Origin: Craspedostauros australis
Taxonomy: Eukaryota > Bacillariophyta > Bacillariophyceae > Mastogloiales > Achnanthaceae
DNA length: 64,000 bases
Assembly: GCA_026770025.1 (NCBI GenBank)
Contig: JAMXDE010000041.1
Coordinates: 496,001-560,000 of the forward strand
Direction of reading: 5' to 3'
A program made the position numbers and the translations under genes. Positions 691-57,412 of the stretch are shown piece after piece (the stretch's first letter is position 1; every line of letters begins with the position of its first letter). The notes under the pieces are model-generated. The model did no database searches. It was not told the origin of the DNA and saw only the letters and a list, made by a program, of their open reading frames with translations.

Positions 691-1050
691 AAGCGTCAAA
701 GACTATACTATTGTGCATGTCTGGTCGCCACAGTGTGGTCACTGAATCCGTCTTCACTCCCTCCGCAGCTCACAATCAACGCCATCACACAAGCCCTTCA
801 CAAGTGGGAACTGAGAGATCCAATGGCCTCACCCAACGCGGATCTCGAACACGACGCCCAAGGTCAAGGTAGAACCAATGCACACAGTACATCTGGCACC
901 TTCACATTTTTCCTTCCGATTAACCTCCCAAAGTGGCATCGCTTCAATTATTCCCGGATTCATTCATCCACCTTCACAGTTACGCACGCTGCGCTCACTT
1001 TGTGCCACCGTAACTGCAACCCATAGTACCACACTCGCAACCTCACAAAA

Positions 1051-1897: not shown

Positions 1898-1928
<31 letters not shown>

Positions 1929-17695: not shown

Positions 17696-18175
17696 GGTTG
17701 GGTATGTGATACTATGGGGAAGCAATACCAGTATAGAGTGACTCGCGGTTGTTGGATGAGAGTACCAGCTGTGGTTTGCTGCATTTCGTCGAGCTGAGTC
17801 GCGTCGCTGCGAGCTCTTGTTCTTGTCAAGACGGATCAGTCCTGGCAACGTGATTGGCGATACTCACATACTAGCAATCGATAGCAGCAACACATGGCCT
17901 TGTGTGTGTACTTGTGTGTGATGACTAAATCGTCGCCAACTAACGGCCAAGCGGGTCTACTGTAGAACGAGAAGAACTCAACAACTATGACAACGACTAC
18001 TACTCTTGTTGTTACTATGGCTGCCATCGTGATGGTTCCAACTGCAATTCTGAATACGGTTGCAAGGACTGGTACTATGTCGCTAGTTCCAAGAACAAGC
18101 AAGCGATGGAACACAACAGGAATTGGCTTGATTTGCTGCAGCCGATGTTGATCAACCACACTCACAAATCAACAG

Positions 18176-19105
18176 TTGAGAAGCAACACTCACATCATGT
18201 TACTGACCACCACCGACGTCATGACCATTGGTCTCCAGTACACTGGCCAACAATTTCAGAGCGCCGCATCCATCGACCAACGCACAAAAGCATTCCGTCA
18301 ACACTACGGGTCTTCACCGCTGGACCTGTCAGAAATGTGGTTTGACATGAATTCAGACTCATTCGATGGTGCCAAGCTCTCAGCCAAAGAGAAGTCACCC
18401 TCAGGATTCAAGCTCTTCATGATGGCACACCACTTCCTTTGGACATACCCAAAGAACGCGAGCATCCTGGCATCGCGTTTTGGTGTGTGTGAACGATACT
18501 GCCGTGGAGAGCCATTGTGGAAATGGATTCGCCGCATCGCCTCGCTGAAGTCCAAAAAAATTGTCTGGGACCCAGCACTCGGCGCGGACAATTCGCCAGT
18601 GTTCGCCATCACTGTGGATGGAACAGATTTTCGCACTTGGGAGAAAAAGCACCCAACGCTCCCCATCGACCGCAAGTACTGTTCCCAAAAATTCAACCAC
18701 GGAGCAGTGAAGTACGAACTCGCGATGTCGGTTTTTGGAGCAAAGTGCGTGTGGATCAGTGGGCCACACCGAGGCGGCGAACACGACATGACAATTTTCC
18801 GGAGTGGTCTGATGCACAAGCTGAAGCCAGGCAAACTCGCGATTGCCGACAGAGGGTATGCCACCAGCAGACCACAAGAACGCAAGCTCCTTTCTCTCCC
18901 GGACAAAATGGACTGCAAAGAGCTTGCCAAATTCAAAAGCAGAGCTCGTTGTCGTCATGAGACGTTCAATGGACGGTTGAAGTTCTTCAACAGTCTTGGC
19001 CATACATTCCGACACGGAAGCGAGCTGCATGAACATGTGATGGTCGCGGTTTGTGTGATTGTTCAATATCAGATGGACAACGGGTCTGCAATATTCAATG
19101 TATAG
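18176..19105 (+). CDS. Harbinger-type DDE transposase (DDE_Tnp_4 family)
   Basis: 309 aa, single exon. The catalytic triad can be read: Asp148 (or Asp151) in VDGTDFRTWE, Asp225 in IADRGY, and Glu262 in RCRHETFNGRLK. The 36-residue Asp-Glu spacing and the GYATSRPQE and HEHVMVAV stretches are typical of PIF/Harbinger transposases. An upstream helical region (about 75-115) would be the DNA-binding part, although a clear helix-turn-helix is not obvious. No stop or frameshift is seen, so the enzyme could be active. Initiation at the second in-frame ATG (18197) is possible. Confidence 0.88.
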   Translation: MRSNTHIMLLTTTDVMTIGLQYTGQQFQSAASIDQRTKAFRQHYGSSPLDLSEMWFDMNSDSFDGAKLSAKEKSPSGFKLFMMAHHFLWTYPKNASILASRFGVCERYCRGEPLWKWIRRIASLKSKKIVWDPALGADNSPVFAITVDGTDFRTWEKKHPTLPIDRKYCSQKFNHGAVKYELAMSVFGAKCVWISGPHRGGEHDMTIFRSGLMHKLKPGKLAIADRGYATSRPQERKLLSLPDKMDCKELAKFKSRARCRHETFNGRLKFFNSLGHTFRHGSELHEHVMVAVCVIVQYQMDNGSAIFNV

Positions 19106-23500: not shown

Positions 23501-25980
23501 TGAAGTGTTCGCTGGTCCGGTGACTCTATAGTAGGGTCAGGTACCGGGGACTCATCGGGAGCTCCCTCTGTCAAAGACATTTGCTTGTTGGCTCCCTCTG
23601 AAGCTGGCATCGGAGGGGCGAGAGTTTCACTCATGAGATCCGGGATCTGTTGTGTCGTTGGTTGCGACTCTTTCGCCAATACCTGTGGCGCTCTTTCACG
23701 GATGGTTCGTTGGTTTCGCGTCTCAGTTATCGGTGGTGGAGTATTATTGTCGTTGCGTTGTAACCGGTTGTGGTCTCGCGTGTCTGATGCAAAGATGTCG
23801 TCCTGCTCCATTGATTCCACATCGTCGTCATCGAATGGATATTGAAAGGTGGTGTCACCGAACATGCAAGTCCATTCTTCCGATTGATAGCTTGGAAGTT
23901 GCTTCAAGTCGGTAGCAATTGTTGCGAACCAGTCGTCGAACACAACATGGAACTGTGGTGTGATCGAACCTGTCCGTGGTGATAGGACCAGGGGTACGGT
24001 TGAAGCATGCTTCGTGGAGAGACCCATGTTCACGTACCTCTCTCCTCTTGGTTCCCATCGGGGTATCTTGCGCCCGTCGGCCAATGCTTTGTTAAGGACA
24101 TAGACTGGACTGCCCCATACGTGCAGGTTATGAAGTTGCTTGAGGGGAAGACGGATGCGTGACAGAACATCGTAGGGTGTGAGGCCAGTGGCAGGATTAG
24201 GCACGCGATTGTAGATGTACGCGGCGTGTACAACGGCCATTGGCCATAGTTGAGCGTCAAACATCGTTGGCCAGTGGATGCTTTGATGCATCATCATGGT
24301 TCGGGCCATTGAGACAATCGTTCGAATGCTTCGCTCGGCGATTCCATTGTGGTGATGTGCGCCAACACCTGCGAATCGATGGACTTGATGGAATATCTCA
24401 AGGTGTTTGGAGTATTCGGGTGAGGTGAAGGTGGTGGCGTTATCTGATAGATACGATCGTACGGGGACTCCAACATCACGACACATCAATTCGAACCGTT
24501 CCTTGGCTTCGAGGGTGGCGTGCGTGGTTAGCGCTGCCACGGGTTCCACATGGATGTATCCTGATGCGTGATCGACGAAGATGGCTCCGCCTTTGTACAT
24601 TTCGTTTGGATCGCCTTTGCCTCGTCCTGAGAAGAGGCGTCCTGGTGTTCGACCGACGAAGTGGTCCACTGATACTTGTTGTCCTGGGAACAAATGATCG
24701 GTGCGCAAAACTCCTTGTTTGTCACGGACGACATGTTGAGTTATTCCTGGGGAAGGTCGACGGTGCAGCTTTCCGAATTGGCATGCGGCGCAGAGCGGAA
24801 GGCTTGTGACCCTTGCCGCAGCTGTGTGCATCTTTCTAGACGATTCTGACCCAGTGAGCGTACCCGAACGCAGCAGGAACTTCACTCGACTGAAGGATAA
24901 GTGTCCGAGACGATAGTGCCACCGAAGAAGTTCCTTTTGCGGTTGGGTGAGGTTCACGTTGTGGTCCGACACGGTAGAGACGATGGACGTTAGTGCAGCT
25001 GGCACGTCACAGATGTTGTCGGCGCTGTAGCCGACTGATGTTGGCAGCCTTGTGGACTTCTTGTAGTTCGCTACAATTGCATTGCGATCGTCGTTTCCCA
25101 GGATTCCGCTGAGTTTGCAGGAGGACTTGTCGAACACGATTGTTTCGCCCTGATACTCTTCGAGGAGACTGGAAGTGCTGATTAGCTTGACCTTTGATTC
25201 GGGAACATGGAAAGCAGGCAGTCGCAATTTGCGAGGGCTTCCAGTTACATCAAGGACATACCATTCGACGGTTCCCAACGCATTCACTTGGATTTTCTTG
25301 AGGAATCCGTTGAGAAAGGTCGGTCTTGGTGGAGGACTTGGAGTAGAACAGAAGTCGTTGAGGTCATTTGTCACAGAGATTGACGCTCCGCTGTCCCATA
25401 CAAGTTCGAATGGAGCATCGGGCGAGAGATAACTCTCAGCTTTAGCTGGAGATGCGAAAGCATTGCGATTGGAGAAGTAGGAGGCTAGACCTTGCAGAGT
25501 GAGTAGTGCGGGCATGTCATTGTCACATTGTTGCTTTTGGTTTCGATCACACATCAAGTCGATTCCACGAGTTGGGTACAGGCTCCAGAGGTTTCGTGAG
25601 ATGGATGAGGTGCGACCTTCCTGGCGGGGCAATTTTGCTGTCGTGAGTGTTTGGTTTTTACCATAAGTGGAATTTTTCGATTGATTCCAGTGACGACGTT
25701 TTGATCTGTGATTGCGGGATTTGGTCCGAGCCTGGGGATGCCACACACGTTTTGTTCGTGGGGAGTTTCCTTTCGACACGTTCACGGGTTTGGGTGCATC
25801 TGGGTCGAGACTTTCCATTACGAGATCGTAAAGACTGCGTTTCACGGCTCCATTGAAGTGTGTTGGGCGTTTGTGCACTTGCTTGTATCGTTCTTTGACT
25901 CGCGCCTTGTTGTAGACTAGGTCAGCAGAGTTGATTGAGTCGGGTCTTCGTGGAACGTTCGTGTGAAGGAGTAGTAGAGT
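20584..25980 (-). pseudogene. Outer copia pol half: protease, integrase, reverse transcriptase, RNase H
   Basis: About 1800 aa with no internal stop. This is the downstream part of a gag-pol polyprotein whose upstream part lies at 33914-35761. Domains in order: aspartic protease (VWDSGAS, Asp199 counted from 25989), pre-integrase zinc region (HYRLGHLSF, CAACQFGK), integrase (SVDHF, LSDNATTF, NGIAERS), a Pro-rich linker, copia reverse transcriptase (FPGTWVFRRKR, YVDD at about 1470) and RNase H (CYVDADFAG, TMESEYAA, ADIFTKGL). All catalytic motifs look intact. The apparent start in the inner LTR is an artefact of the insertion. Order PR-IN-RT-RH is diagnostic of Ty1/copia. Confidence 0.92.
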
Positions 25981-26771
25981 TGTTGGCAAGTTCCGCTCAC
26001 GGTAACCTACGATCGTGGAAGATGGTGTTGGTTGATAGTCGTCTGTTTGCTATTTCATTACTTGGCTACTCCGATGCTCTCGGTGTACGCCCGTTCTCTT
26101 GCCCGATGCTCTCGGCGCTTCAATCTGTTTCGTAGATTCGGTCTCCGACTATGAGTCGGTACGCGAGATCCTCTCTCGCTCCTCTCTGTATTCTCTCTCT
26201 CTCTCTCAACATCGTGTGCTCGTGCTACACGATCCTCCGTGTTTGATGCGTGCTCCGCATTCGACACTCCGTTCATTCAGTACTGGCTTCTACTCCATGA
26301 GTACTTACCATTTGAAGTTCACCTTCAGTATCCATGATCTTCATGAGTCATCGTATCTTCGCCTCCTGCTCTGACTTGGAGACAGCTGTCGACGTGGTGA
26401 CATGTTGACATCCTGTCGACGTCAGTAGGCGTCCTTCTGCTCTCCAGATGTCACGTTCCATTGGTGATGCAGTAGTCTGTCAGATGATATCGTCATCTGA
26501 GGTTTAGTTGGGAAGTACCTCGAGATTCTCTTGGTACCATTGATGCATGGACGGACGATTTTCTGATTCTTCCAGAAATCGTTATTTGCAAATTTCCTCC
26601 AGAAATCTTGCCCCTTTTTGTGTGTTCCATTTCCCCTGTAATTCTGACGAATCACAGCATACTATCGACACGAGTATAGTTATACCGTCCAAGTGCGTAT
26701 GAGAGAATAGCGGGTGAACGATGCACATATACATGTACATCTTGATATATACTCACATGTACATCTCGACA
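25981..26771 (-). repeat. 3' LTR of the inner copia element
   Basis: 791 bp with canonical TG...CA ends. It matches 33117-33907 except in GATGCTCTCGGCG versus GATGCTTTTGGCG. The short open frames inside it also occur in the other LTR and are not genes. Confidence 0.94.
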
Positions 26772-26791: not shown

Positions 26792-29700
26792 TCATTCGAA
26801 TGTTCTCGATATGTCAAGGTATGACTTCTCATGTTCACGTTGCAAGTCGGCCTTGATGTTCTTGGTGAATCCGTCGCTTGTGTTCTGCTCGGATTTGACG
26901 AAAATGATTTCGATGGTTTTGTTGATTACCATGTTCCTCACGTAGTGATGGCGCACGTCGATGTGCCGCGATCGTTGGGATGTTGATGGGTTCTTGGCGA
27001 TGAAGATCGCCCCGATGTTGTCCACGCGGACCTTGATCGGTGTCTTCACTGGGACGCCCACACTTTCGAGTAGCTGCATGACGAAGAAGATCTCCTTTGC
27101 CGCTTCGGAAAGGGCAATGTATTCTGCTTCGGATGAGCTGAGTGTGACGGCCTTCTGTGCCTTGGATCGCCAAAGGATTGGTACCTTGCACAGGTATAGG
27201 ATGAATCCCCCTACGCTGATTCTTGTATTCTTGTCTCCTGCATATTCGCTATCGCAGAAGAGCTCCATGTCCCAGCCGTCGTCATCTGGACGCGCTGGAT
27301 GGATCTTCAATCCATAGTCCTTTGTATCGATCACATACTTGATGATCCGATACATCTCCTTCATTGCGGCCTTGGTGGGCCCGATCAATACCTTGGAGAG
27401 TTCCCTCACAGGGTTCGCGATATCTGGTCGCGAGTGCTTGATGAGGAAGAGTAGCATACCGACGCCTCGGCGGTATTCGGCATGTTCTTCCGGTCCGACC
27501 TTCTGCAGTCCGTTATCTTCGGATGGTCGTACGATGATTTGACCCGGGGTTCCCGGTGTCCCATAACGTTGCATCTTCTCAACTTTGGCTCCGAATTCCT
27601 CGATGAGGTGTCGGATGAGATGTGGTTGACGCAATGTCGCTCTAGTCTTGTCATGGTTCAATTCGATGTTGCAGCTGAGGTAGTCTCCGAGTCCGCGCTC
27701 GATTGTCACCTTGAATTTGCTGCCTTGGATGTCCTTCAGGAATGTCTCCAGTGCCTTGGAGTCTCCGCAACAGAAGCAATCGTCCACGTAGATGGCCACG
27801 ATCATGCTTCCTTCGTTCGTCTTCCTGTAGAACAGGCACGGGTCTGCTGCGCTCTGTTCGAAGTTGATATTCTTGAGGGTCGATACCAACATCTTGAACC
27901 ATTGCCTGGCGCTCTGCACAAGTCCGTAGATTGGCTTGTGTAGGGTCAGGGCTTCGTCTGGTTGATGATCCATCCCATTGGGACAGTTCATGTAGATCTC
28001 CTCGTCGAGGTCTCCATGTAGGAATGCCGTTACGACATCGACGAGTGCGCAGTCCATCTTCTTGATTAGCATGATCACCATCATGACCCGATAGGTCACG
28101 TCATGGATGACGGGTGAGTAATGCTCTTGGAAGTCTACTCCTGCGACTTGTGAATAGCCACATGCAACGAGCCGCGCTCGATGTGTGCCGTCACGCTTCA
28201 GCTTGAAGACCCATTTGCACTTGCAGCATCTGCGGCCGCGTGGAATGGCGTCTCATTTGATCTTACTGTATACCTTGCGTGTATCCATGGAGTCGAACTC
28301 TTTCTTGATGGCTGCTCGATATCCTTTTCGATGGATAGGATCTGGGTGATTGAAGGCTCCATCGAATGTTGTAGGTTCGATGTGCTTCTCTGGTTCCTTG
28401 TTCTCGTCTTGCATCGACAATCCGATGTCGATCGCTGGTCTCTCGGTGATGATTGCATTCATTCCGTATAGTCCTGTTGTGCTATAGTGAGTGATCTCGA
28501 TCTCTTCATCTTCGTCTTCGATTTCTTCGTCATCTGTAGTTTCGTTGTTGGAATCGTCGATCACCTCGTCGCTGAGTTCGTCACTCGCCTCACTGGATGA
28601 TGGATCGCTCTCATAGCCTTCTTCCTTTCGACCTCGTTCGTTGAAGTCTTCGAGCTCGCGCAGAGCTCTGGGAATACTCTTCCCTGTGGTTGGCTTGGGA
28701 TTAGCTTCTCCCTTCCTGCCTCGTGCTTCGTGACGTCGGATCCTCTCCTTTCTAGCTATGTCACGCTTGTTTGGTTTGCTTGGTGGAGATCTAGATGGTG
28801 TGTCATGTGTAGACCTTGCTGGTGTGTTCGGAGGAGTGACACCTGTCTCGTCATCGGCTTCGTCGCCGGAGGGTAGGATTTCGTCATCCTCATGATTGGA
28901 TTCGCTCCGATCTTCCTCGTCATTCTGGATTAGTTGAGTCACTACTCCGTCGTCCTCATTATCCTCGTCATCACTGTCTGATAGAATGTAGTACCTGTTG
29001 CTGTCAGCGAAAGATACTCTCTTCGCTTCCGATGTTTGACGCGTTGCCGTCCTTGGCGTTGCTCCCTTTCGTCCGATGGTTGTGAAGCCGTCTGCGTCCG
29101 TTGTTCCTGTTTCGTTGGATATGTTCGGTGCTGGTGCCCAACCACGGAACTGTCCGTATGATTGGTTGAGCCACTTGATGTCGCGTGAACAGATGAGTGA
29201 CTTGGTCGATGGTCTGTACATGTTGTAGACCCCTGATGCATGTTGGTGTGCATATCCGATGAACACCATCTCTTCTCCTCTGTTCTTGAGTTTCGCGGTA
29301 ATCCCGCCGTAGGTAGTCTTCACAACACCCACCTCTCCAAATGTGCGGAGCGCGTTCGCATATGGTGGATCGTTGCCGAAGAATTGTCGATGTGGTGACT
29401 CCTTCTGGTTCTTCGCTACGGTGATATTGGCGATAGCAGTGGCAGTGCTAGCAGCTGCTGCCCACAGGCCATGCCTATACTCTTCGTCGAGCTGTGCTCC
29501 GTTGAGCATGGAGCGAATCTTGGTGTAGAGGTACGCGAACTTGCGTTCCACTCTTCCGTTCTGTTGCGGCGTGTTCGATGCCGTGTATTCGAATTTCACG
29601 TTGAGTCCTGCATCGATGAGAATATCCTCCGTGGATTTGTTCTCTCCGCTGTTGTCACCTCGGAAGATGATCTGTTGGTCACCAGTCTGTGACTTGATCG

Positions 29701-32700
29701 TCTGGATGAATCGTTTGATGTATCCTGGTTGATCACTCTTGTTCTTGAGAAAGAAACTCCAGCAGTGATCCGTGCAGTCGTCCACGATCAGGGTCCAGTA
29801 GCGTTTATCTCCGAAGCTTATGTGTTTAGTGTAACTAATGTCAATGAAGAACCGTTCGCCGCGGCGAGTAGCTCTTGGAATAGTTGCCTTCGGAATATTC
29901 TTCACTCTTGCGTTCGCGACCGCGCAGTCACGACACACCGGCATCTCGCCGATGATTTTCCATCCGTATTGAGCGGCCGTCCGCTTCATGGTCTCGAGTG
30001 GCGCGTGGCCGAGCATTCGGTGCAAGTTCACCGCGCTGATCTCCTTGGATGGATTCTTGACGATGGCTGTGCAAGCCTTGTCGTCGTCTGTTGGCATGAT
30101 GGGATGCATCTGCACTCCCGTGATGAATCCGTTGGATGTGGGGAAGACTCGATCGAACACGATCTTCGTTCCGGATCCGTTGATGATGTCCATCAGAATG
30201 CCGTTGTTACCAAGCTGGTAACCGTTGTACAGAGCCTTGTTCGTGGAGAAAAGGTTCACCGCCATCTTGGGTGTGTACTTCACATCATCGAGCCGGATGA
30301 CGTGGCCAGTGTTGTCTCGCTGTTTGACTTTCAAGCGAATGGATCCCATCTTGGGAGAGTCCAGCTTCGTGCTGTCTCCCACTTGGACGAAGGACTTGAT
30401 GTGCCGCACGTTGAAGAGAGCGGCGTCCGAGTTGACGATGTGACACGAAGCTCCGCTATCGGCGAGCCAGGTGTCTTTGTTGACCTTGTCCTTGTACTTG
30501 GTGCTCAGTTCGTGGAGTTGCTCCACAGCTGCCGCAGCTATCTCGTCGTCGAAGCTGCCGTCGTCGTTGTCTTCGTGGACTCCATCTTCGTTGTATGGAT
30601 GATGATGGTCTCCGTCATCCATGTCGTCGGGTAGTTGCGCGTAGTCCGATGGAATTGTACTGTTCCGATGAGATCCTGTGGCTGGATCGTATGGGTAGAC
30701 GCGTGATCGCTCTCGCAAGAGCACGCGCATGCATCCTCCAAGGATGTAATGCAGATCCGTATCTGGGATCGTTTCCGAGTCGTTCCCTTCCAGTATGCGG
30801 TTGACGATGATTGCATTGGCGAGGATCTCTTCGATTGAGTCGAAGTGCTCGGATAGGATGGATCCCATCATGTTCACCCATATTGGCATGAGTGCTCCTC
30901 GTGTCGTTCCTGGGAATACTCGCATTCCCGCTTCCATCACGGCGTCAAAGATGAGCTGCTTTTGGATTATCAATGCTGTTGCTGTTGCATTCGGGATGGT
31001 GCTGTGACGGAGGAGGTAGTCGACGCTATTGGGATTCTCAATATCCGGGAAGTCGATATTCGATGGATAGACGACACGCTCGTTTGGATTGAAGCTGTCG
31101 TCTGGATGATTGCCGTCCTCGGATTCGTCGCTGTCATCCTCGTCGAAGATGCCCGATCTGTTGTTCCCCGCCGCTGGAGGAGGCGGCGCCGCGGCGCGGC
31201 GCGTTTCGCCTTGATTGATGAAGGTTCCCGTTCTCTCGTATCTCCCAGCTTGAGGAGGAGGCAACTCGTCACGGTTCGCCTCGTCGTCTTCATCTGCGCC
31301 GTCCTCGTCGGCGTCGTCGTCGTCGTCATCGCTCATGGCCTCTTCGATGTCGCTATCGTTGGCCTCGTCCATCTCAGCTTCGTCGCCGTATGAACCGATC
31401 AGGTCGTGCGCGTTGAAGCAGCATTCGTAGCTCACTTCGCGTCTTGGATCCACCTCGTGGATGATTGGCTCCTCACTGAGCCACTCCGGGATGATCTCAT
31501 CATCCTGCACTTCGTCGTCACTCCCGACGTATTCGAAGTTATCGAAGAAGGAGTCTTCGATGTAGTCGTCGGACACCAACATGCAGAGCGGCATGTCCTT
31601 TGCAGAGAGTACCATCTCGTGCCCGCTCTTGTCGTGTCCTTCCGTAGCCGCGTTGGCTTGTTCGTTGTTCTTCTTCTCGTTGAACTTCTTCTTTCGACAT
31701 TCCGCCTCGCGGTGTCCGAAGATGCCGCAGTAGTTGCACTTGCCCTTGAAGCCGCTTCCCTTGTTGCGCTTTCCGTTCATCTTGTTGTTGTTGTTGTTGT
31801 TTTTCTTGTTGTTCGGTTTCTTGCGTTCTGGGCAATCGGCGGATCTATGGCCATACACGCCACAGTTGTGGCAAGTACCCTTGAAGTTACCGGTGCTTGT
31901 GAAGCCGGTGTCGTTGCTCTTCGTGTTGCTGTCTTGGAAGTCGTCGACGTATGCCTTGCCTCCTCTGTGGGTGGCGTATGCAGTACGGAGTACTCCTCTG
32001 ATCGCGTTGATGGTAACCAGTTCCGGATTGAACGTGAGTTGGTGTTGGAAGTTCACGACGTGGGTTTTGTATTCCACGCTCACCGTGCTGAGGATTTGCA
32101 TGATCATTTCCTCGTCTGTGATCTCGTACTTGACATCGTGGAGACGCGATCGTAGACTCTCGAGTTGCGTGATGTAGATGTCGGGGTCCGTGTCTCTCTT
32201 CATCTTTTCGTTGTTGAATTGGCGCTTGAGTTTGATCTTCGTTACTGCGTCGGATGGTCGGAACTTCTCCGCGAGAACGTTCCACGCTCCGTGTGCGTCT
32301 CCTTCGGGGTAGTCGACGGAGATGCATTGGTTGATGTACTGGATGGCTTGCTTGCCCTTTCCTTTCTCTGCATCCATCATGAGGATCAGATCGCTGAAGC
32401 AATCGCATCCCAGCTCGTAGATCTCCTCCATCGCTTCCTTGTCTTCATCGGCGGCTGCCGCGATCTCGCTCACTGTTGGCACCTTGGTCTTGCCCAACAT
32501 CACGTCTCTCGTCTTCTGTGCACGAGCGTATGCCTTCGCTTGGGACTCCCATGCGCTGTAGTCTTCCTGTTCACCGCTGAACATCGGCGCCTTGATGCGT
32601 CGCTTGTTCACGTTGGCTGATGTCGCCATGTTGATTCGTTGTTTCGTCGTTGGTGCGCTCGCGCCCTTGATTTCCGTCTGTTTCTGTGTTGTCGATTCTT

Positions 32701-33034
32701 CGATTTTCGCCTGTTGTTGCGCGGAGATTGTTTTCGTCACAAATTCTCCTCCTGGTGGTGTCTCACTTTTCCCACCCTGTTTGGCTGTGCGAATGCTCTT
32801 CGTCACACCAGTCTCCTCTTGCTTGATCGCCTTGAGAATCCTCTTCTCCTTACGATGTAGTCTTGCAGACCGTTCTTCTTCGGTCTCGTCGATCGCGCTT
32901 GCGTCTGCGCTTGATAGGACAGTAGCCGCGGCTGCTTCCTTCTCTTCTCGTGGTGGAGTCTCACTCGCACCTTCTTCTCTCTTGATAGTCGGATTGGACA
33001 GAGGGATGTCTTTCAATTCCTCTTCCTCGCTCAT
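26792..33034 (-). pseudogene. Inner copia gag-pol polyprotein with one in-frame TGA
   Basis: One continuous frame of 2081 codons apart from a single TGA at 28253-28255. Domains in order: acidic N-terminus; gag with two CCHC knuckles (CHNCGVYGHRSADC at about 385, CNYCGIFGHREAEC at about 432); a long acidic spacer; protease (WLADSGAS, Asp859); GAG pre-integrase (NLHRMLGHA, CRDCAVANA); integrase (FIDISY, GDNSGEN, NTPQQNGRVERK); a charged linker; reverse transcriptase (CKWVFKLKRDG, IYVDD at about 1747); and RNase H (ELFCDSEYAG, SSSEAEYIALS, DGFTKN). The TGA falls just before the conserved start of the reverse transcriptase, where related proteins read through. It is a recent nonsense mutation or, less likely, a recoded stop. 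Confidence 0.9.
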
Positions 33035-42292: not shown

Positions 42293-44942
42293 TCACTTCT
42301 TTCCATGGTATATATCCCAATGATCCCTACAGATATAGACTTGGCAGAAGCTATACATCCTGGTAACCCGTTTAGGTTTGGTTCCCTCCTTGCCAGAAAG
42401 TCTTGCATTTGCAGCCAGAAATGCACAGTATCTGCACGTTTTTGCCCAATCTCCTTTCACAATAACTTGCTCATGTTCTCTGTCTTCTCCCATCAATCTT
42501 GCTTCTGGGAGGGTGGGGGCATTTGTGCTCATTCTGTGCCTTGTCACTATGAGTCTAGGTGCCTGGGAAGACGATCTTGTGCCCCTTGAACTCGATGTGG
42601 ATGACTTCCTCACAAGGGCTTCCACCATCTCCAGCATGAATTCTTTTTGGGGCAACCTCTCCTCTTTGTCTGCCAGATGACAATGACTGATCCATGCGTT
42701 CACTCTGAGGATATCCAGGAAATGGAACATGAGTGGCATCCATATCCTCCTGCACCGCATGTTTGGACAATGATATGATATGAGCTGATCACATTGGTCA
42801 ACCCCACCCATCCAGTGATTGTATTCATTGATCATTTTGGGAATGCGGATTCTTGCATTCCAATCATCCCCCCACACCTTCTTGAGATGCTTCTTGTTGA
42901 TCCGTGTCTCTCTTGGCTTGTGACGATCATGAACAACTGTCTCATTTCCATAGTGAACCATGCTCACCATCAGGACAATGTTGTTGTCCACCCACCAAGT
43001 CACCACATGCTCATTTGGTTCAATCCAGATGTACAGACTGTTGAACCTGTCATCCTCCACCTCCTTAACTGCCTTTGGAGGAAATCCGGTCTGATTGCGT
43101 GCTGTGCCCAAAATGCCAATGCCTATCTGCCTTGACTGCTGGAGAACCATCTTGGTGGTGAAGAAGTTGTCCATGGTGACCACATGATGATGCCTTCGAT
43201 CAAATTCATTCATCAACTCCTCCACAGTGTTGTTGATTCTTGTGGTCTTGTCAAGTCGACCTGCTGGTAGGATATTAGCGCAACGCTATATTCCTAACAA
43301 TAGCGACACCCGTCGACCAATCAGAAATCTTCACTTTTCTTACCTTTTCCGTTCCGAACGGAAATTCTGGTAAAAATTCCGTTGTGTCAATTTTGTGTCA
43401 CATTTCGCGTCGCAAGAACCGTTTTCCCGTCAATCCCAGTTCCAACATGTCGCGGAAATGAATTTCTTGCCAAGATGAACCACTCTGTCCAATCAGGACA
43501 GACTTCCGTCTTGGGTCCAATAAATACGGAACCGTCCCCAACCTTCTTGAGTGAATACAATCAATCGTCTGATCGTTCTACTCGCAACATCGTGAGGAGT
43601 TGCACACTACAACACGGCGTATCGCGGTGTTTGTTTTCTGACTTTTGCAAATCCGAACCCACGCAGTAACACGCACATTTGTTGTGTTGTCTCCGTGTTA
43701 TATTCCATCTGCAATTGCATGAGACCTGCAAGTTGCCTCTCATGCTCACAGTTCCAAGATCTCAATCTTTGGAGCTTGACAGTCTTCATCTACTCATACG
43801 AATAACACACTAATCAAACAATCATCCTCACCAACAACCACGAATTGATCACTCTGCGTTTTTGGTGTGGTACGCTACCCATATTCAATTTCGCTCTATC
43901 ATAGGATATGGTACATGAACCCAGTGCTTGAACAACACAGTGCAAAGAATTTGAAGCTTTCTTTGATTGGCTTCATCTTCATCCTGTGTGTCTGTGCAGA
44001 ATGACCTTTGAACCGCACCATCATTTTGTCAATGGCGCATGCAGAGCCTGGTCTTGTACAGATGCGTTGGGCCACTTGATTGGTATGGTTGGGGAGTGAC
44101 TGCACCTTCCTGTACCATGATTGGCTCAACTGAACACTGCTGCCCTCCTTCTTGGCCTTCTTTTGTGCTGGCAGCTTTGTATTGGAGGCTCCGGTATCCT
44201 TGGACTCTGCACTGTTCAACTTCAATGAAGCTGTGCTGATGGATGATAGCTCACTTTGTGATGCAATGGTGGTACTGTCTGCACTCTTCTGCATATCATC
44301 TTCATTGACATTGAAGTTGATGGGTGTGGTGGAAGATGCTGAAGATCCGTTGTCATCATCTGGAAGCTCTGCAGTGAAATGGATATGCTGGAAGATGATG
44401 TCATATCGATTCCTGCTCAGGTGGGTCATGAGTGTGTTAGTAGGGACGGATACGCAGGTGCCACACCAATAGTCCCTTTTTGATGGTGCGTTCCATACTC
44501 CCATGTAGTAGTACATTGCCAGGAATATGTACAGCTTGGAAATTGTGATGGCATTGGTCATGCTGCCGCTCTTCTGCAGATGCTTGTTTGAATGCCGTTG
44601 GATTCTTTCCATCAATGTATGTGGAAAAATGATCTCGAGAAGGCTGTCCACTGTGGTCTTCAAATTCCGAATGCCAGCAAATCTTGGCTTGTGATTTCCA
44701 ATGGGTAGGGGCGTGTATGGAGGAGGAACCATGGGATGAAGAGGTACTGGAGGACTGGCAATTTTGTCCTCTGGGGAGGCTGCATGACAGGAATCCCAGG
44801 GTGGCTTGGTGGATTCTTTGGAGCAGACAACGGTATTGCGCCTGGATTGCCCATCTGTTGGTGTTGGGAATGGAGGGAAGTTCAGTTGCGGAATGGTTCT
44901 CTGGTTGCTGCCATCCCTAGTGAAGCATGCACAACCCTCCAA
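42293..44942 (-). pseudogene. piggyBac-like transposase split by a 626-bp insertion
   Basis: The N-terminal part (44942 to about 43902) and C-terminal part (about 43275 to 42293) share a frame across the insertion, making about 671 aa. The N-part shows YWCGTCVSVP, the first catalytic Asp305 in AIDKMMVRFKG and MKMKPIKESFKFF. The C-part shows VVTMDNFFTT, VDNNIVLMVS and MGGVDQCDQ, giving the Asp residues typical of DDE_Tnp_1_7, then a C-terminal Cys/His cluster (CRYCAF, YICRDHWDIYH). A TGA at 44949 closes the same frame upstream, so a longer original N-terminus is possible. Apart from the insertion no catalytic residue seems lost. Confidence 0.85.
43276..43901. mobile_element. 626-bp non-autonomous insertion with 8-bp target duplication
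   Basis: Bordered by TAGGATAT at 43268-43275 and 43902-43909. No coding capacity; it contains a CCAAT box-like site, a short palindrome (TTCCGTTCCGAACGGAA) and an AATAAATA stretch. Eight-bp duplications fit hAT-type or similar cut-and-paste elements, but clear inverted ends are not visible. Confidence 0.8.
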
Positions 44943-44948
44943 GTTTCC

Positions 44949-46196
44949 TCATGTGGTGGTGCTGTCTGTGGAGAACTCTGGTGTAGTACTGCTGTTGGTG
45001 TAGGATTTTCGTGTTGGCGAAGGGATGGGGCTGACTGTGCTGCCATTTGTGGCATCATCATGGCAGGACTGATGGTTGGCATCAATGTTCAATGAGGAAG
45101 CAGTGGTATCCAAAGCAGGCAGATCAGGATTGCCCCAGATGTTGCTGGTGTTGCAGGATTCATTGTTTCCAAGGAAGTCTCTGTAGGTTGGACTTTGCTC
45201 AGAATTAGATGTGCTGTTGTTGTCTCCAAAGAAGATGGCAGAGGAAGGCACACCATTCAGGAATATGATATGTGGCCGTGAGCTGCTGTAGGGTGACCTG
45301 TTGTATGCAAGGGGCTTGTGTGCAGGCAAGGATGGCAATGTGCCTGTGGGGGTGTGCACTTTTGTGATGGCTTTTTTGGGGGGTCGACCATGATGTGACT
45401 TGGACTGATGTGATCTGATGCTGTGATGTTGCAATGCCACGATGCTGTGATGCCACGATGATGTGATGCTGCAATTCCACGATGCTGTGATGCTGCAACA
45501 ATGTTGTGATCCTGCGATGATGTGATGTTGCAATGATGTGATGCCATGATGGTGTGATCCTGCAATGCCGCTACACTGTGACGTTTCAATGCCGCAATGC
45601 TGTGATGCTGCGATGCCACGATGCCATGATGGCTCAATGCCACAACGCTGTGATGCTACGATGCTGTGATCCTGCGATGTTGCGATGATGTGATTCCATG
45701 ATGTCGCGATGCCACGACGCTGTGATGCTGCGATGTCGCGATGATGCGATGCCGTGATGGTGCAATGCCGCGACGCTGTGATGCAGCGATGCTGTGATCG
45801 TGCGATGTTGTGATTATGCGATGTTGCGATGCAGCCATCCTGTGATGTTGCCATGCTGCGATATTGCCATGCTGCGATATTGCCATGCTGCGATATTGCC
45901 ATGCTGTGATGCTCACATGATGCCATGCTCACATGATGTGATGCTGGTTGCATGGTAAGAGAAGCAGGCACCGCAACCTGCAAGCATTGCATTGGGAGGA
46001 AGAGGCATGCCGATTCGCAACAGCAAAGGTATGACGCTCGGGTGTTGGCGAGGAAGCAAATTCGAAAAACGAAAATGCGACCTCGCCAATTTGGCGATTC
46101 GCGTCTCGCCAATGGATTGAGCGACAGTCCCGCAGCTCGAAATTGATTCACGAGTACTTTAGGCGACGATATTAACCTAACGACAGTAAAAGACAT
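44949..46196 (-). other. Low-complexity 5' part of the piggyBac-like element
   Basis: A frame of 415 codons is open here, in the same frame as the transposase but separated by TGA at 44949. Its middle is a translated minisatellite; 45000-45390 encodes a Ser/Thr/Asn-rich stretch that may be an old N-terminus. I do not call it a gene. Confidence 0.4.
45395..45945 (-). repeat. GATGCTGTGATG-type minisatellite
   Basis: About 550 bp of degenerate units such as GATGCTGTGATGCCACGATG, mostly 8-bp and multiples (TGATGCTG, CGATGCCA, CGATATTGCCATGCTG). On the minus strand it reads as His/Ser/Ala/Ile repeats. Confidence 0.85.
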
Positions 46197-46313
46197 ATGA
46201 ATGTAGTAGCATGGTTGGAAAGAAGAGCTCGAGAGGATTCAGAATATGTAAAGAAAAGAGGTTCCCACTCATAGGCGTTGGGGTCGAAAGTTGGAATAAC
46301 TGATTATGAAATT

Positions 46314-49761: not shown

Positions 49762-51004
49762 TTCGTCCTGATTGGAGAACTGGTTGCCTGCGCTTGCTTA
49801 TGGTAGAAGCCGTTGCTCGTGAGCTTCGGCGTGACACTCGTATCCTCCTCGATGTCCCAACCACGCCGCAACTCGGCTTGGCTCAGCTGAGCTGATCTGA
49901 TCTGATCTGATCTGAAGCATCCAATGGCAGGACCGAGCTCGAGAGAGTCGCTCATGGCCTCTTCTCTTGCTGTTCTCACTGCTTCGTGGGTGCTATTCTC
50001 ACTGCTTCGTGGGTGCTATTCTCGCTGATTCGTGATGATCGGTGGAGGCGTGACTCCACATCAGCCGCTTCCGATCCATTTCTCTTTGTGGGTGCGAAGC
50101 GCACCGTTGTTGATGTTCTTTGTTGGATTCTCACAAAAGTGATGGAGAAACGAATCCAGGCGTAACAACCTTGGGGAATTGTGAGCCTCTTCCAGTACTT
50201 CTGGCTTGGGGAGAGAATCCGATGAATCGTGAGTACTACACAGGCATGTCTACATCGTACGCTAATAGAGATCATACGAGATCTCCCCTTGATCGGTTGA
50301 TGAGATCTATTCAAATGAGGGCACATACTCGTTCATCAAGAGAGCAGAGGAGGATGCTTCTCGCAACTGCATTTGACAGTCAGAGTCACCAGGTGGAAGG
50401 ATAGCAACAGACCTGTGCAATCACAGTGTCGTAAGCTGCTGGTTGTTGCTGCTGCTGCTGCAAGGATTGCGTTCTAATCCCGTTCCACCCTGTGTCTCCA
50501 GAGGCATCAGTGGATCAATCCAACCCGCGATCTGCAGTATCTCACTCACTTTCAAGAGCTCTGAAGAAAGTACCAGCCGAGAGAGATGAGGGCAAAAGAT
50601 GACAGCGTTCTTCGGGAATCGTTGCATTGCAGTTGCACGCCCTCCAGCCACCAGAATCACACATAAAGTCACCAGCATGGCGTTCTCGTGAATGGATTGT
50701 CTCGATGCCTCCCCTCCACCTGCTTTTCCCCCCTCGATCTCGTTCCACCTTGATCTCAGGTGATGTGATCAAAGCCAACGCATCAAGATTCGTGGGGCAA
50801 TCAAACGGGAACGGTTTCTGGCGCCCACGGAACCTTCAGTACTGTTCCTGTTTGCTCTCTGCCTCCTTCACGCGTTTGTGGCAACAACGAAAAGAAAATC
50901 CAGGAACATGGTTTTGTTCGTGGCGTTTCCGTTCTTGTTGCAACCGCGCGAGTCCCGACTCGTGACTCATCGCTTCTCGTGCGACGCGCAGCATACTTCT
51001 CTAT
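49762..51004. other. Upstream region of LRR gene 3
   Basis: 1.24 kb with no supported gene. It includes four TGATC repeats near 49897-49916, a 23-bp duplicated CTATTCTCACTGCTTCGTGGG stretch near 49970-50020 and a GCTGCT run near 50446. Confidence 0.5.
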
Positions 51005-51165
51005 GAGCCCCCCGAGTGAGTCGATCAAGACTTTGAAATAGACCTCGCAACTTTTTTCCTGCGATTTCAAAACTAAGTACATATTCCCAATCCTCGTAGA
51101 TCTAAAACATATACCAATCCATTCCAGATCTGAGGTTGGCCGTATTTTAAGTTTTATGGACCGAT
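51005..51165 (+). repeat. Left TIR of the 6.05-kb transposon
   Basis: Aligns to the reverse complement of 56898-57057. The outer 33 bp differ at one position; the inner part is gapped and about 60-70 percent alike by eye. Confidence 0.85.
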
Positions 51166-52855
51166 GGATGTGCGCATTTTTCGATCTCTTTCGGGTTTCA
51201 GCTGTTTGGCTACGACTACATCGATCCAACTTAACCCTTTGCTGTTCTTTGTTTCAGCAAGGTTGTTCCCATTTTGAATTGTTTAGTCTCTTTTTCAGGC
51301 GTTCCGATCAGAGCATCCAACACCCTGTCCACGATAGCGCTAGTTGTAGAGTTCTGGGAGAAGCGGCGGGTGCGCGTTTACGTCCAATCTACTCTGTGCG
51401 TGTCCAATCCGTCGTCGACGTCAGCAAACTGGCTGCTGCGTCATGAACCACCAATCACAGCACGATGTGCTAGGTTCTCACCAATGCCTTGTTGTGGTGG
51501 AATGGTTGAGTGAGGTTGGTACTCTCGAAGTGTTTTGTGTCATGCATTTTTCGTACGTGCGTTGCAATGTTTGACATTTACCTCAGCCCCCAGGATGCCC
51601 GACTGGCCGAGAGCGCCAAACTCGACACAAGAAGATGACAATGGCGGAACACCAAAAAAACATCACAATGGACACCCAACGGCATCGTCAGCGCCGCACC
51701 AACCAGCGGCCCAATGAAAAATCCAAGCACATCTCCGTCACCGCCATGCAACCCTTGGTGGGTGGACGAGCGGAGGCTGCGAGAGCGGTTGATTTGGGGC
51801 CGCCGCAGGCCTCCGCGCAAACGTCTCAAAATTGCGGCAGATTGGCTCGTTGGATGTAGCCTGTGTATTCCATGCACAGGCCACACCAACACCTGCGAAT
51901 GGGCAAGACGCATCCAGGAGGTCACCATCAAGGTCCCCACGAAGTTTGAGGCTCGGGAAGGACCGGGAAGGTGTCCGCGCGGAGGAATCAGTGGAGGGCA
52001 AGAGTTTTGTTGGGCGGATCGTGGCGAACCTGCCATGTGACTTTGGCAGTGAGGGGGCAGCATCATCAAGCTGCCCAATCTCCAAGTCACCCATACAAGA
52101 CCCGCGCGTCATCGCCTGAAGATGCACGTCGCGAAGTTCGAGCTGCTGCAACGGTCTGGAAGAGGCTGCGGCATCGAATGAGTGCATACCTGTCATTTTT
52201 GGTGGGGCACCGAAAACCAACAGGGCCATCACCAAATGGAGGTGTGCCATCGGGACCATCCACACCCAGCCCAGTCTGGATGCATCAGCATGTCGCCAGG
52301 TAGTGTGGGAATGCACGAGGGTCACGTGGAGGGGCTGAAAGGGTCCTGTGGATGAGATATGGATCCGTATCCATACCGCATCCGGCTTGCACTTCGTTTT
52401 TTGAAATCTTTCTTTTTCAGTGTATCAACACTTTGGGGTGTGCAATGTGGCAGAAATGTTCTGTCCTTCATGGAGTGGATAGCTGGGGAGCATACAGAGC
52501 CATTGTGGTGCGCAGTTTGAAGAAATACAACGATGATGATGATGATCATGGGTGCTGAGGGGAGGGCAACATTGTGCCATCCAGAATTTTTCGAATTCAC
52601 CACACAACTGTGTGGTGGTCAAACATGACAATAAAAACAATTTCTATGTCAATTTAACTTTGATATTCTGTATAACCTATAGTCAGGCGTCTGAATGCAA
52701 TGTTTAGATTTAATTGCAAACGATGTGTTGTTGAGATATAGCATGACAAGCAGATATTGGATGTGTTTTTTGGATGGCCTCTAGACTCGTTGTAGTAGCA
52801 TGGTCTGCCACCCACAAAACTCCACAACTCGTGTTATCGCGGCGATGCACATCCA
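51166..52855. other. Transposon interior without a recognised gene
   Basis: 1.7 kb between the left TIR and the transposase stop codon. The longest open frame is 195 codons on the minus strand (51738-52325), with no motif I know. Region 52620-52760 is AT-rich. Confidence 0.45.
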
Positions 52856-55800
52856 TCACAAAATTTCCATCCCATCATCCAACACAGCCTCACTTTCTGT
52901 GTTGGCCTTCAGTGTGTCAGCATCACACCACATCTGATGATCCAGCTCCTCCTCCTCTCTCTGCAACTCCTTCTCTGTTCGTTCCTCCTGTGTTTCAGCT
53001 GGCGCATAGTGGGTCGCCACGATTGCAGATGCTGTTGCTTTGCTTGTTGGGTTGGTGTTGGTGTTGGCTTCCGCCTTGATGAGAGCGGCCTCCTTCTTGT
53101 CCTTGCGTTGTTTGGCGTTGTACGCTGCAGACAGCGACGCTTTCACGCGCATGGGATTTGCGTGCAGTTGTACGTACCAGTCAGTTTTGGTTCTTTTGTT
53201 GGCCATCAATTGTTCGTGTGCTTCGTGTTCGGATGGCCTGTTTTTTGGGTCCTTCGCGGACGCTTCACTGATGTCCTTCAACTTGTCCGCGATGTAGTCT
53301 GGTAGTTCCGCTGGTTTGCGTGTTGTTTTGCTCGCCCAGCCTGGCACTGCGAGTGGAGGGTGTTCGGTTTCGGCGGTCTGGTCTTGTAGCGCTGTGGTGT
53401 GATCGGATGGTAGATGTTGTTGTCCGTCTGCGATGGCTTTGCCGAACGCCAGCCCCTTGCTCTCTGCCGCTGTGCGCCCGAGTTTTCGCGTCTTGTCCGT
53501 CTTCCTGAACGATTCGGATGTTATCGGCAGCTTGTCGGACTTGTGTGTGTGAACATCGGCAACGCCCAGCTGGTTGATGATCCAGCCGTCCCATTCAGCG
53601 CTCTTCACAAGGACGTCTTCCGTGATGCCAGATGCAGCCACCAACCGCGCCTGGTCATCATCATACTTCACCTCGTGAGTCTGACGTACCTGTTGCCCGT
53701 TCGCACGGAATCGTCGTTTGGGTGCGCCAGGAAGCGCGGTGATGTTGCCTTGGAGGGACGACGCGTTGACCAGTACCGTGGTGGTACCCGCGATGTCACC
53801 GGCTTTCAGTGCAAGGAAGAGTTGGAACGGGGTCTTGATGTCCTTGCCACTTTGCACGTATTTTCGCAGTACACGTGTGATGTACGCGAAGTGGGTGTCC
53901 AGCATGCTCTTACCAGTTTGGGCCTCTGTGTAGATCCACGCGATGATTTTGGCTGCTTTTCGTGTCACAAGGTTCTTGTTGAGTACCGATGTGATGAGCG
54001 CGATGTGCTCGTGACTGGAAAAGCAACACGCGTTATCGCTCTGTAGGATGATCTCAGTCACGGATGGGAGAATGTCTTTGACCGTTTTTTGCAGGATGTC
54101 AAGTAGTCCACCAACTTGAAGTGTGTCTTGTGTCGGTCTTCCGCCGACCACAATGTCAATGAACTGATAAGTAAAAATGTCGTTGCGACACGTGATGACC
54201 ATCGCCCCAAGCAGTGACATTCCCTTCTTCCCCCAATATTCTTGTTGGGCTTCGCTTTGGCCTGTCGGTAGAATTTTTTGCTTATGGTCAAGTACCACAT
54301 AGGCTCTTTCAGGCTTATCATTGAGTTCGGATTGATAAAAGGCGATTTGTCGGAATTGAACTTTTGCACGCACTTTGTGAGCCATGTAGTTAACAATTTC
54401 GTTGGCGAATCCCGGCGCTGCCGCAAGCATGGATTGCAATTCGTCCTTGTGTTCTGCGAGTTCGTTGTCCTTAAGCATTGTGACAAAAGGAACGAAACGA
54501 TCATTCACAAATCGCATTGCTGATCCACAACGGTTGCATACTTTACGTGGTTGTTCGGTTGTGGTGGTGGGAGGAATGTCAATTGTGATGGTTGGAGTGT
54601 CGTTTGTGATAGCAGTTTTCTTCTTGCACTTGTGCTTGTTGGTGCGTGGTTTGCGTTGATTGGTTGATGTGGTTGGTGCCTTCTTCTTCTCCTTTTTGGT
54701 GGTGAGAGCGAACGCGGCCGAATGCATGGGGTCGTCACACTGAAGCTGCATGTGCGACGCGGTGAATTCCCATTTGAGGAACACAACAAGCAGCTCGAGC
54801 GCATGCAAGAGGGAATGGGCTGTGCGTACATGATGTGCGATGACGTCATCTGGCTCATCGGTATCGTTGTGGCTCCTGTCATTGGCATCGTTTTGTTCCT
54901 CCCCATCAGTTTCATACTTAGCCTTCAGTAGGTCTACTAGGCGCGAAATTGCCTGTTTGAGTTTCTCCGTCGCCATCCAGAAGTAACTCTCGAAGGAAGA
55001 GAGGCCCGTCTTGATCTTGCTTTTGCGTGTTAGTAGGTTGGTCATGGTGGTGAAAGCAGGCATTCCCACTGGGCGGTTGGTCGTAGACGAGTACATGTCG
55101 AATAGTTGTTCGATAGTCGTGCTTCCTCGATCGAACACCGGAACATTTTCAAATACAACTCCACCATACTGTACCGTGTGACTCAACCCTGCCTTATATG
55201 TAGTAGTTGTCATGAGGAAGGACACCACGCCAGACAGGTCGCAAGCACACACACGGTACTGGAGAACTCGCTGTGGAATGCTTTCGCCATGGCTTAACAT
55301 GTCGTAGTAACGACGCAAGGTGTATGTCTGGCTGGGTGTGATGATGTCGCGTTTGGCAAGCATGCGAGCCTTCTGTTCCTCCGACAGTCCATGTGTGTGC
55401 CTACCCAGAATAGCAGTACACAGTGCAGACGGTGCAGACATGGCCAAAGCAACTCTTGCCGTGCGGGAAGAAGAAGATTCTCCGAGCAAGCAGAGGGTGT
55501 AGAGGTTAGATGCCAACATCGTGGGAGGAAGCTCCACGTTCCCGCGCACGTATGCAATCACCTGTTCCATCTGACGAGTTGGCACATTCTCTTCTGGAAG
55601 CAGGACAGTCCAAAGTGCAGATGATGTGACACTCCACATCAGTTTGATGTAGCTCCAGATGGTCCGTTCGTGTCGGCCCGCGAGGACAAATCCTTTTTTT
55701 GGCATGAGCTGCAACAGTTTTGGATCTAGGTTAGATCTAAGCGCTGCCATCACACGAACAATGGCATGGCGCCTCCAGTTTCCCCCCTCCTCTTCCTGAT

Positions 55801-56485
55801 CATGCCCGAACTCGCCTCCTCTCCTGTCCCAGCCAGCGCGCGCCTGTTTTTCGTCCTCGTCAACGTACGTACTGTCGCTGTCAATAGACGGATCTGCGTA
55901 CCCCCCGGCAACAACAGTGTTGCAACGCCGGGGAACCCTCCCTGGCGGGGTAGGCTCGACAGGTGGTGCAACGTCGGCTGCAGTAGGCGAGGGTGGCGCG
56001 TTCACGATAACGCTCACCAAAGTCCCATCGCCGACACCTCGTCCCTCCGAACGCACCTCGACATGGGAGTCGTCGAAGACGCCTCCGTTGTCGTTGAGGA
56101 TGTGGACGAACACATGCAGCTCGCGAGCGTGCGCATGCGTGCTGTTCGGGACGAGGTTGCCATCCGCTGCATGCATCGGTTTCACATCGATCACTCGTGT
56201 GATGGTGCTCTGCCTCCCCAATACAGCGAATGGCTTGTCAGGCAACAGTTGCTCAGAGGCTGGCAGCAGGGCCCCCTTGGAGTCGAATGGGTGAGCAGGC
56301 ATGGGGTGAGCAGAACACAGCTTCTTACGAGGAGAGGGGTTGCCATCCTTGGGGAGGGCTTTGTCAGCAGCAGAGGTAGGCATGGTGGAGTTGTTGCTGG
56401 AGAGTAGTGCTGTTTGCTTGTTGGATGTGATGAACTGGTCTGAGAGGAAGTGAGGTAAGGAGAGCACAGGATGAAGGCCGATCAT
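52856..56485 (-). CDS. Large D-D-D protein, candidate transposase of the 6.05-kb element
   Basis: 1209 aa, single exon; the ATG at 56383 (residue 35) is an alternative start. The N-terminal 200 residues are Pro/Ala-rich and disordered. Residues about 220-560 are helical, with a possible Zn site (CACDL). A Lys/Thr-rich linker then precedes CNRCGSAM. The core has Asp733 in VVLDHKQKI, YWGKKGMSLLGA, Asp817 in ILQSDNACCF, and Asp863 in TEAQTGKSMLDTHFAY (Glu854 is an alternative). Acidic spacings of 84 and 46 residues fit an RNase H-fold nuclease. The last 200 residues are charged and helical. I recall similar GKKGMS/SDNA/GKSxLDxHFA patterns in uncharacterised proteins of other eukaryotes but cannot name a domain. 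Its position between long inverted ends makes transposase the best reading. Confidence 0.7.
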   Translation of the reverse strand: MIGLHPVLSLPHFLSDQFITSNKQTALLSSNNSTMPTSAADKALPKDGNPSPRKKLCSAHPMPAHPFDSKGALLPASEQLLPDKPFAVLGRQSTITRVIDVKPMHAADGNLVPNSTHAHARELHVFVHILNDNGGVFDDSHVEVRSEGRGVGDGTLVSVIVNAPPSPTAADVAPPVEPTPPGRVPRRCNTVVAGGYADPSIDSDSTYVDEDEKQARAGWDRRGGEFGHDQEEEGGNWRRHAIVRVMAALRSNLDPKLLQLMPKKGFVLAGRHERTIWSYIKLMWSVTSSALWTVLLPEENVPTRQMEQVIAYVRGNVELPPTMLASNLYTLCLLGESSSSRTARVALAMSAPSALCTAILGRHTHGLSEEQKARMLAKRDIITPSQTYTLRRYYDMLSHGESIPQRVLQYRVCACDLSGVVSFLMTTTTYKAGLSHTVQYGGVVFENVPVFDRGSTTIEQLFDMYSSTTNRPVGMPAFTTMTNLLTRKSKIKTGLSSFESYFWMATEKLKQAISRLVDLLKAKYETDGEEQNDANDRSHNDTDEPDDVIAHHVRTAHSLLHALELLVVFLKWEFTASHMQLQCDDPMHSAAFALTTKKEKKKAPTTSTNQRKPRTNKHKCKKKTAITNDTPTITIDIPPTTTTEQPRKVCNRCGSAMRFVNDRFVPFVTMLKDNELAEHKDELQSMLAAAPGFANEIVNYMAHKVRAKVQFRQIAFYQSELNDKPERAYVVLDHKQKILPTGQSEAQQEYWGKKGMSLLGAMVITCRNDIFTYQFIDIVVGGRPTQDTLQVGGLLDILQKTVKDILPSVTEIILQSDNACCFSSHEHIALITSVLNKNLVTRKAAKIIAWIYTEAQTGKSMLDTHFAYITRVLRKYVQSGKDIKTPFQLFLALKAGDIAGTTTVLVNASSLQGNITALPGAPKRRFRANGQQVRQTHEVKYDDDQARLVAASGITEDVLVKSAEWDGWIINQLGVADVHTHKSDKLPITSESFRKTDKTRKLGRTAAESKGLAFGKAIADGQQHLPSDHTTALQDQTAETEHPPLAVPGWASKTTRKPAELPDYIADKLKDISEASAKDPKNRPSEHEAHEQLMANKRTKTDWYVQLHANPMRVKASLSAAYNAKQRKDKKEAALIKAEANTNTNPTSKATASAIVATHYAPAETQEERTEKELQREEEELDHQMWCDADTLKANTESEAVLDDGMEIL

Positions 56486-56487
56486 TC

Positions 56488-56546
56488 AGCAACAACAACA
56501 ACAACTACTACTACTACTGCTACTACTACTACTACTACTACTACTA
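56488..56546 (+). repeat. CAA/CTA trinucleotide microsatellite
   Basis: CAACAACAA followed by CTACTACTA, just upstream of the 1209-aa gene. A second set of about four GTGATGTGTTTT units lies at about 56650-56703. Confidence 0.85.
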
Positions 56547-56897
56547 CTCTGACAAGAACGGGCATTGAGCGAAAGAGCGAGTGTGCATGCCATTGGCGAG
56601 GAAAGTTGTGAAACGGAGCGAAAGTGTGGCGCGATTTTGCAAAATGATGGGGATGATGTGTTTTGTGTGATGTGTTTTGTGTGATGTGTTTTGTGTCATG
56701 TGTTATGTGACGAGCAGAATGTGGAATCATGCGCCACATGCTAACGTGTAATTAACGTGTACCAAACGACTGAGACCTTCGGAAGCAAGTTCGTGACTGA
56801 TCACCAGACGATAAATACTTGAGAACATCATCGAACCTTCGGCAGAAACAAACGAATTTTGTGCTGTTGGATTCACGCGACTAGACTAAACACATTG

Positions 56898-57057
56898 ATT
56901 GATCCATAAAACTTAAAATGAAACTAACTACAATCTGAAAGGTTCCATTATACATAAAGAGACTACAAGGACTTCGAATATGTGCTTAGTTTGAAAATCC
57001 CAGAAATCCGATTAGACTTTTCATTTCAAGGTCTTGATCGACTCACTCGGGGGGCTC
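56898..57057 (-). repeat. Right TIR of the 6.05-kb transposon
   Basis: Inverted partner of 51005-51165, followed by CTAT at 57058-57061. Confidence 0.85.
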
Positions 57058-57412
57058 CTATCCGAACAACGGCAGCAAACAAGTCGTGCAAGGGAGGAAA
57101 AGTATCACGAGACGACACACAAGCCCCACCACGCGCTCTGTCGCGCTGGGGTCGGCAACCATCCTGTGATCCAACGTGTGGTCGCTACTGATCGTACTGC
57201 GAGACTTACAGGAATCCATTCAACATTCGGCGCCTGACTTGCTCGGCCGAGTAGTGTTGGCGGCACGTGCGAATCGTCACCGACAACAAGATCTTGCCCC
57301 CATCAGATCATAAAACAAAATCCTGTTCGAAGCAAACAACGGAAAGGACGACAACAGCCACAGCCCCACAGCGCACCTCTCCTGTACACCAACGCCACAG
57401 CAAACAAGCAAG

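Follow-up and report, generated by a model that had tools for sequence, protein, structure and literature searches.

The question raised by this locus is whether the inverted ends and the large gene at positions 51005-57057 of the window, that is, the whole 64,000-nucleotide stretch analyzed here (contig C39:496001-560000 of a 74.8-Mb genome in 90 contigs), belong to a mobile element and whether such an element is of a kind not yet described. Our analyses indicate that it is very probably a recently mobile, autonomous DNA transposon with terminal inverted repeats (TIRs), since it has defined ends, many copies, a family-wide NTAN target duplication, an open transposase gene that purifying selection has maintained, and relatives that share its motifs. 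The kind of transposon is known, and its enzyme is without a match to a named family in the libraries searched. The original prediction spoke of an undescribed mobile system, which is stronger than the evidence allows: the element looks like a DDE/D TIR transposon, possibly of the Sola superfamily.

The inverted ends predicted at 51005-51165 and 56898-57057, each abutted by CTAT, were seen in the sequence. Both ends of the element (51005 and 57057) begin with GAGCCCCCCGAG, and the adjoining CTAT copies of the target site duplication occupy 51001-51004, in keeping with the NTAN pattern of the family, and 57058-57061. Alignment of the arms placed the left TIR, which begins with GAGCCCCCCGAGTGAGTCGATCAAGAC and lies on the 3' side of the transposase gene, at 51005-51172 on the forward strand, and the right TIR, on the 5' side of the gene, at 56890-57057 on the reverse strand. 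The 168-nt arms aligned with 127 identities in 177 columns and a score of 142, against a maximum of 23 among 200 pairs of random stretches of the window. Complementarity reached 95% over the 38 nt of the outer part (51002-51039 and 57023-57060) and 86% over the 29 nt of the inner part. The element thus carries TIRs at both ends, as is characteristic of DDE/D TIR transposons, and the prediction of a complete DNA transposon is borne out by the arm alignment, the open gene and 272 termini in the genome.

These termini were found with a 22-position pattern (136 matches per strand; none with the reversed control), and 268 matches were retained when TAN was required in front. The genome search with the left TIR gave 258 first-look candidates, 40 of which were scored, while the search with the transposase gave 561 candidates, of which the 38 scored showed 83-100% identity, the best 8 of them 96-100% and the top copy 100%. 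Provided that termini come in pairs, the 272 matches correspond to at least about 136 copies, and the family probably comprises more than a hundred, many of them intact. Among the first 100 termini listed there were 37 neighboring convergent pairs less than 20 kb apart, 30 of them spanning 5.99-6.11 kb and 7 longer, and none was below 5.99 kb, so that no short derivatives were seen in this set. The element appears young because near-identical copies, the best at 100% at the protein level, retain open frames, and it is probably still mobile. Among the copies, one at C32:477000-497192 (L014, L002) has ends about 19.5 kb apart; as both are flanked by TTAT, it is probably a single element interrupted by other DNA.

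The original prediction named CTAT as the duplication, and its 4-bp length proved real, but CTAT is merely one instance of the family target NTAN, and a fixed CTAT target is ruled out. The first search string matched the upstream end in 20 of 30 copies, all 20 with a central TA in the flank; the other 10 were inspected by eye and showed it in 9, the end of L015 being altered. The four flanking bases were the same on both sides in 5/5 copies with both ends fetched at the usual spacing and in 17 of another 20 pairs, drawn from the 30 that span about 6 kb. All 22 duplications confirmed at both ends (5+17) read NTAN with free outer bases: the first was A in 11, C in 5, T in 4 and G in 2, and the last T in 8, A in 6, G in 6 and C in 2, with ATAT occurring in 3/22 and TTAA in 1/22.

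Empty sites, which the original prediction had asked for, were recovered for two copies nested in other members of the family, while none was obtained for the window copy, whose joined flanks match only themselves in the genome. The nested copies, C9:1599227-1605326 and C9:1067394-1073450, are inserted in other members, some 150 and 80 bp from the outer end. When their flanks were joined with a single tetranucleotide, the joins aligned through the junction with uninterrupted members, namely the member beside L026 over 249/287 joined bases (84%) and the member beside L018 over bases 25-182 of 210 (84%), and ATAA or ATAT occurs once in these empty sites. L026 itself (L026:627-876) adjoins the end of another family member at ATA. 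Taken together, the matching flanks (17/20 and 5/5) and the two nested insertions reveal a duplication of fixed length that is single in empty sites, as in DDE/D TIR transposons.

Of the three mismatching pairs, two belong to C6:1182200-1196504 (L077-L080), where two oppositely oriented copies carry swapped target duplications, and the third lies at C1:2668996-2675037, its mismatch being left without explanation. The C6 flanks match (ATAG and ATAT) if the stretch between the copies is inverted, which makes an inversion by recombination between the two copies likely. This stretch bears on the possibility that the inverted pair in the window arose from a segmental inversion or an assembly artefact, but it lies between two members of the family, and that origin is contradicted by the 272 termini, the TAN in front of 268 of them, the nested empty sites and the open genes; we regard it as next to inconceivable. 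The grounds that the original prediction had named against itself, a segmental inversion on the one hand and, on the other, a want of further TIR copies together with a fold lacking an RNase H-like core, were not what these analyses encountered.

The single large gene of 1209 aa, with D733, D817 and D863 in the motifs originally quoted, was read in the translation of the frame 52856-56485 on the reverse strand (1,209 codons). The transposase itself probably starts at Met35 (codon 56381-56383), as judged from the fetched copies, because 13/30 have a stop upstream of it (at index 5-23) and the methionine is kept in 30/30; the gene would then span 52856-56383 on the reverse strand and encode about 1,175 aa, the open frame extending to 56485. 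From Met35 onward, 28/30 fetched copies are open; the exceptions are L025, with a stop inside the gene at index 434, and the truncated L016. Among 8 scored copies that were not fetched, 5 carry unplaced stops in the stretch that matched, namely a single TAG in 3 and two TGA in 2, and the other 3 lack any stop. Recoding or decay as the meaning of the in-frame TAG is mostly ruled out, since in 13/30 copies the stop precedes Met35. Pairwise ratios of nonsynonymous to synonymous substitution rates (dN/dS) among nine representatives were 0.23-0.34 in all 36 pairs, indicating that selection has preserved a functional transposase in the different subfamilies.

Between the left TIR and the gene lies a 1.7-kb stretch (51173-52855) in which no frame is kept across all examined copies and which aligns between subfamilies with many gaps. 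A second gene is not claimed there: an opposite-strand frame of 247-261 codons is open in only 6/30 copies, is shorter (147) in 2/30 and is split in two in 6/30, the window copy included, while the remaining 16/30 showed none of its marker motifs.

The proposed active site lies in a core that was modelled over residues 650-1000 (53486-54538, reverse strand, as are the positions that follow) and is RNase H-like by prediction. The first proposed catalytic aspartate, D733 (54287-54289), stands in VLDHKQKILP at the end of model strand 1, the second, D817 (54035-54037), in QSDNACCF after strand 4, and the third, D863 (53897-53899), in GKSMLDTHF, where the helix that follows strand 5 begins. With moderate confidence, the model has an RNase H fold in which the three aspartates are placed to hold two metal ions, and the DDD triad, already suggested in the original prediction, draws further support from its invariance in an alignment of eight proteins (the window protein, L039, L042 and five of the window's own family, so that 6/8 are from that family). 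By prediction, the element therefore has the RNase H core with three acidic residues expected of DDE/D TIR transposons. H578, H588, C650 and C653 (54527-54754), before the core, are likewise invariant in 8/8 and may form a zinc site. In the fold comparison of the modelled core, the VIA-align listing was led by integrase cores, and no transposases beyond mariner-type ones were among the 50 matches listed, which says nothing on kinship. Two BFVD matches with E≤0.001 to herpesvirus proteins (TM about 0.2) were not interpreted, and a model of residues 232-1060 (pLDDT 45) was not used.

The transposase would bind the TIRs and pair them, excise the element at the GAG/CTC boundary and attach the element's 3' ends to the two target strands at points 4 bp apart, with TA in the center, after which gap filling would generate the NTAN duplication. 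The mechanism of transposition appears ordinary, and a firm conclusion is that the element operates as DDE/D TIR transposons usually do. Eukaryotic DDE/D TIR elements mostly move by cut-and-paste, which, by analogy with the class, is probably also the mode here rather than copy-out. A replicative (copy-out/paste-in) DDE/D element might be read from the high copy number, the near-identical open copies and the lack of short derivatives among the 37 terminus pairs, but cut-and-paste predicts TIRs and a short duplication just as well, and we consider the replicative alternative quite improbable.

Transposases of this appearance may carry GKS-x-LD-x-HF around the third aspartate. As a DNA pattern this motif gave 207 matches in the genome (control 0), and a narrower pattern that left out the two commonest variants gave 3 sites (control 0). 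L039 has an open frame of 1,269 codons with 30% identity to the window protein overall and 41% over the core, and together with L045/L046 (C1:1401000-1410400) it forms a sister group with this open transposase frame. L042 has an open frame of 1,062 codons with 40% identity over the core, and L041 is partial, the first aspartate falling outside its aligned piece. L040 has two in-frame stops and 73% identity over an aligned piece that stops short of the third aspartate, and it has 182-nt inverted repeats (87%) with ends that read, by eye, ACCC-GGTCAGTGAGT with ATAT on either side. L041 and L042 showed no inverted repeats resembling element ends, and those of the L039 element were not found in 9.4 kb of contiguous sequence or when a second copy was compared with it, so that the combination of NTAN and TIRs applies to the window's family and, by eye, to one L040 copy.

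Outside this genome, no confirmed relative was found in IMG/VR contigs, prokaryote genomes, phages or plasmids; five contig scans gave 2 to 59 peptide-pattern stretches each, none confirmed by tblastn, and near records of the same genome may be left out of these scans. The whole window protein had no match with E≤10 in Pfam, NCBIfam, PHROGs or PDB sequences, while matches of the core or its relatives to Pfam (E 0.043-1.2) and of L042 and L039 to PHROG (E 0.062-0.58) were below cut-offs or otherwise not interpreted. The literature searched, a set without the Sola paper of 2009 or that of Yuan and Wessler (2011), gave no description of the family. The negative library and contig searches, together with four divergent relatives in one genome that share the motifs, would suit a DDD lineage outside the named superfamilies, whose hallmarks would be NTAN targets together with the motifs D-H-K-Q, QSDNA-x-CF and GKS-x-LD-x-HF. 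However, the silence of the libraries is weak evidence because models for Sola and Academ may be missing from them. Similar SDNA and GK-x-x-D motifs occur in some eukaryotic proteins; of the two patterns written for that form, one gave 0 matches in this genome and the other 7 against 2 in the control. A separate eukaryotic DDD lineage that has an invariant His-His-Cys-Cys set ahead of its core, has multiplied in a silicifying alga and continues to move is an unlikely reading.

The silicifying host is suggested by the silicon transporter family PF03842, with 88 matches in the genome, 32 of them above 760 bits (e.g., C2:977655-1028778 and C11:710408-712021). This number is large, but more than 30 copies of such transporters are reported among diatoms and Parmales (PMC13403384). 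The matches point to a stramenopile that builds silica, a diatom being most likely and a member of the Parmales less so. By eye, the window also holds Ty1/copia-like polyproteins (20584-26049 and 26792-33034, reverse strand), piggyBac-like fragments (42293-46238, reverse strand), a Harbinger-like DDE gene (18152-19105, forward strand) and a large frame (1027-7482, forward strand) that resembles a fusion of a nucleotide cyclase with an HD phosphodiesterase and bears a His/Asp-rich repeat. The transposon family has defined ends, an NTAN target, divergent sister groups in one genome and young-looking copies, which makes its classification against Sola directly testable, and it is a candidate transposition tool for diatom-like algae.

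The element was compared with several known systems. For Academ, KDZ, Zator and others, the whole window protein had no Pfam match, in a library that may hold no model for each. Tc1/mariner elements (Mos1) have a 2-bp TA duplication, in contrast to the 4-bp NTAN seen here, and no sequence match in Pfam or PDB. Ginger and retroviral integrases resemble the element in the predicted RNase H core, integrase cores being first in the fold comparison, but there was no rve Pfam match with E≤10, a search that might miss an integrase of very divergent sequence, and the proposed third acid is the aspartate in GKSMLDTHF. A 4-bp duplication with central TA and a DDD/E core are common to piggyBac, Kolobok and the element, yet the former two use TTAA (PMC9587614), found here in 1/22 duplications. 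The translation, read by eye, shows no C/DxxH between D817 and D863, a motif that five superfamilies have (PMC9587614). The AWWT duplication of dictyostelid Sola2 elements (PMC3627910) differs from NTAN and fits only the 3 ATAT of 22. Membership of the Sola superfamily, as a divergent Sola1- or Sola3-like lineage and hence an already named kind with the same mechanism, has in our estimate an even chance. The comparison is by description: Sola is on record from both a diatom genome (PMC7466962) and a brown alga (PMC12477816), and its elements are described as having DDD, 4-bp duplications, sizes of mostly 2-9 kb and TIRs of 11-1124 bp (PMC10741241), a description that the element fits in its duplication, size and TIR length and, as far as the modelled positions and their invariance in 8/8 proteins indicate, in its DDD triad.
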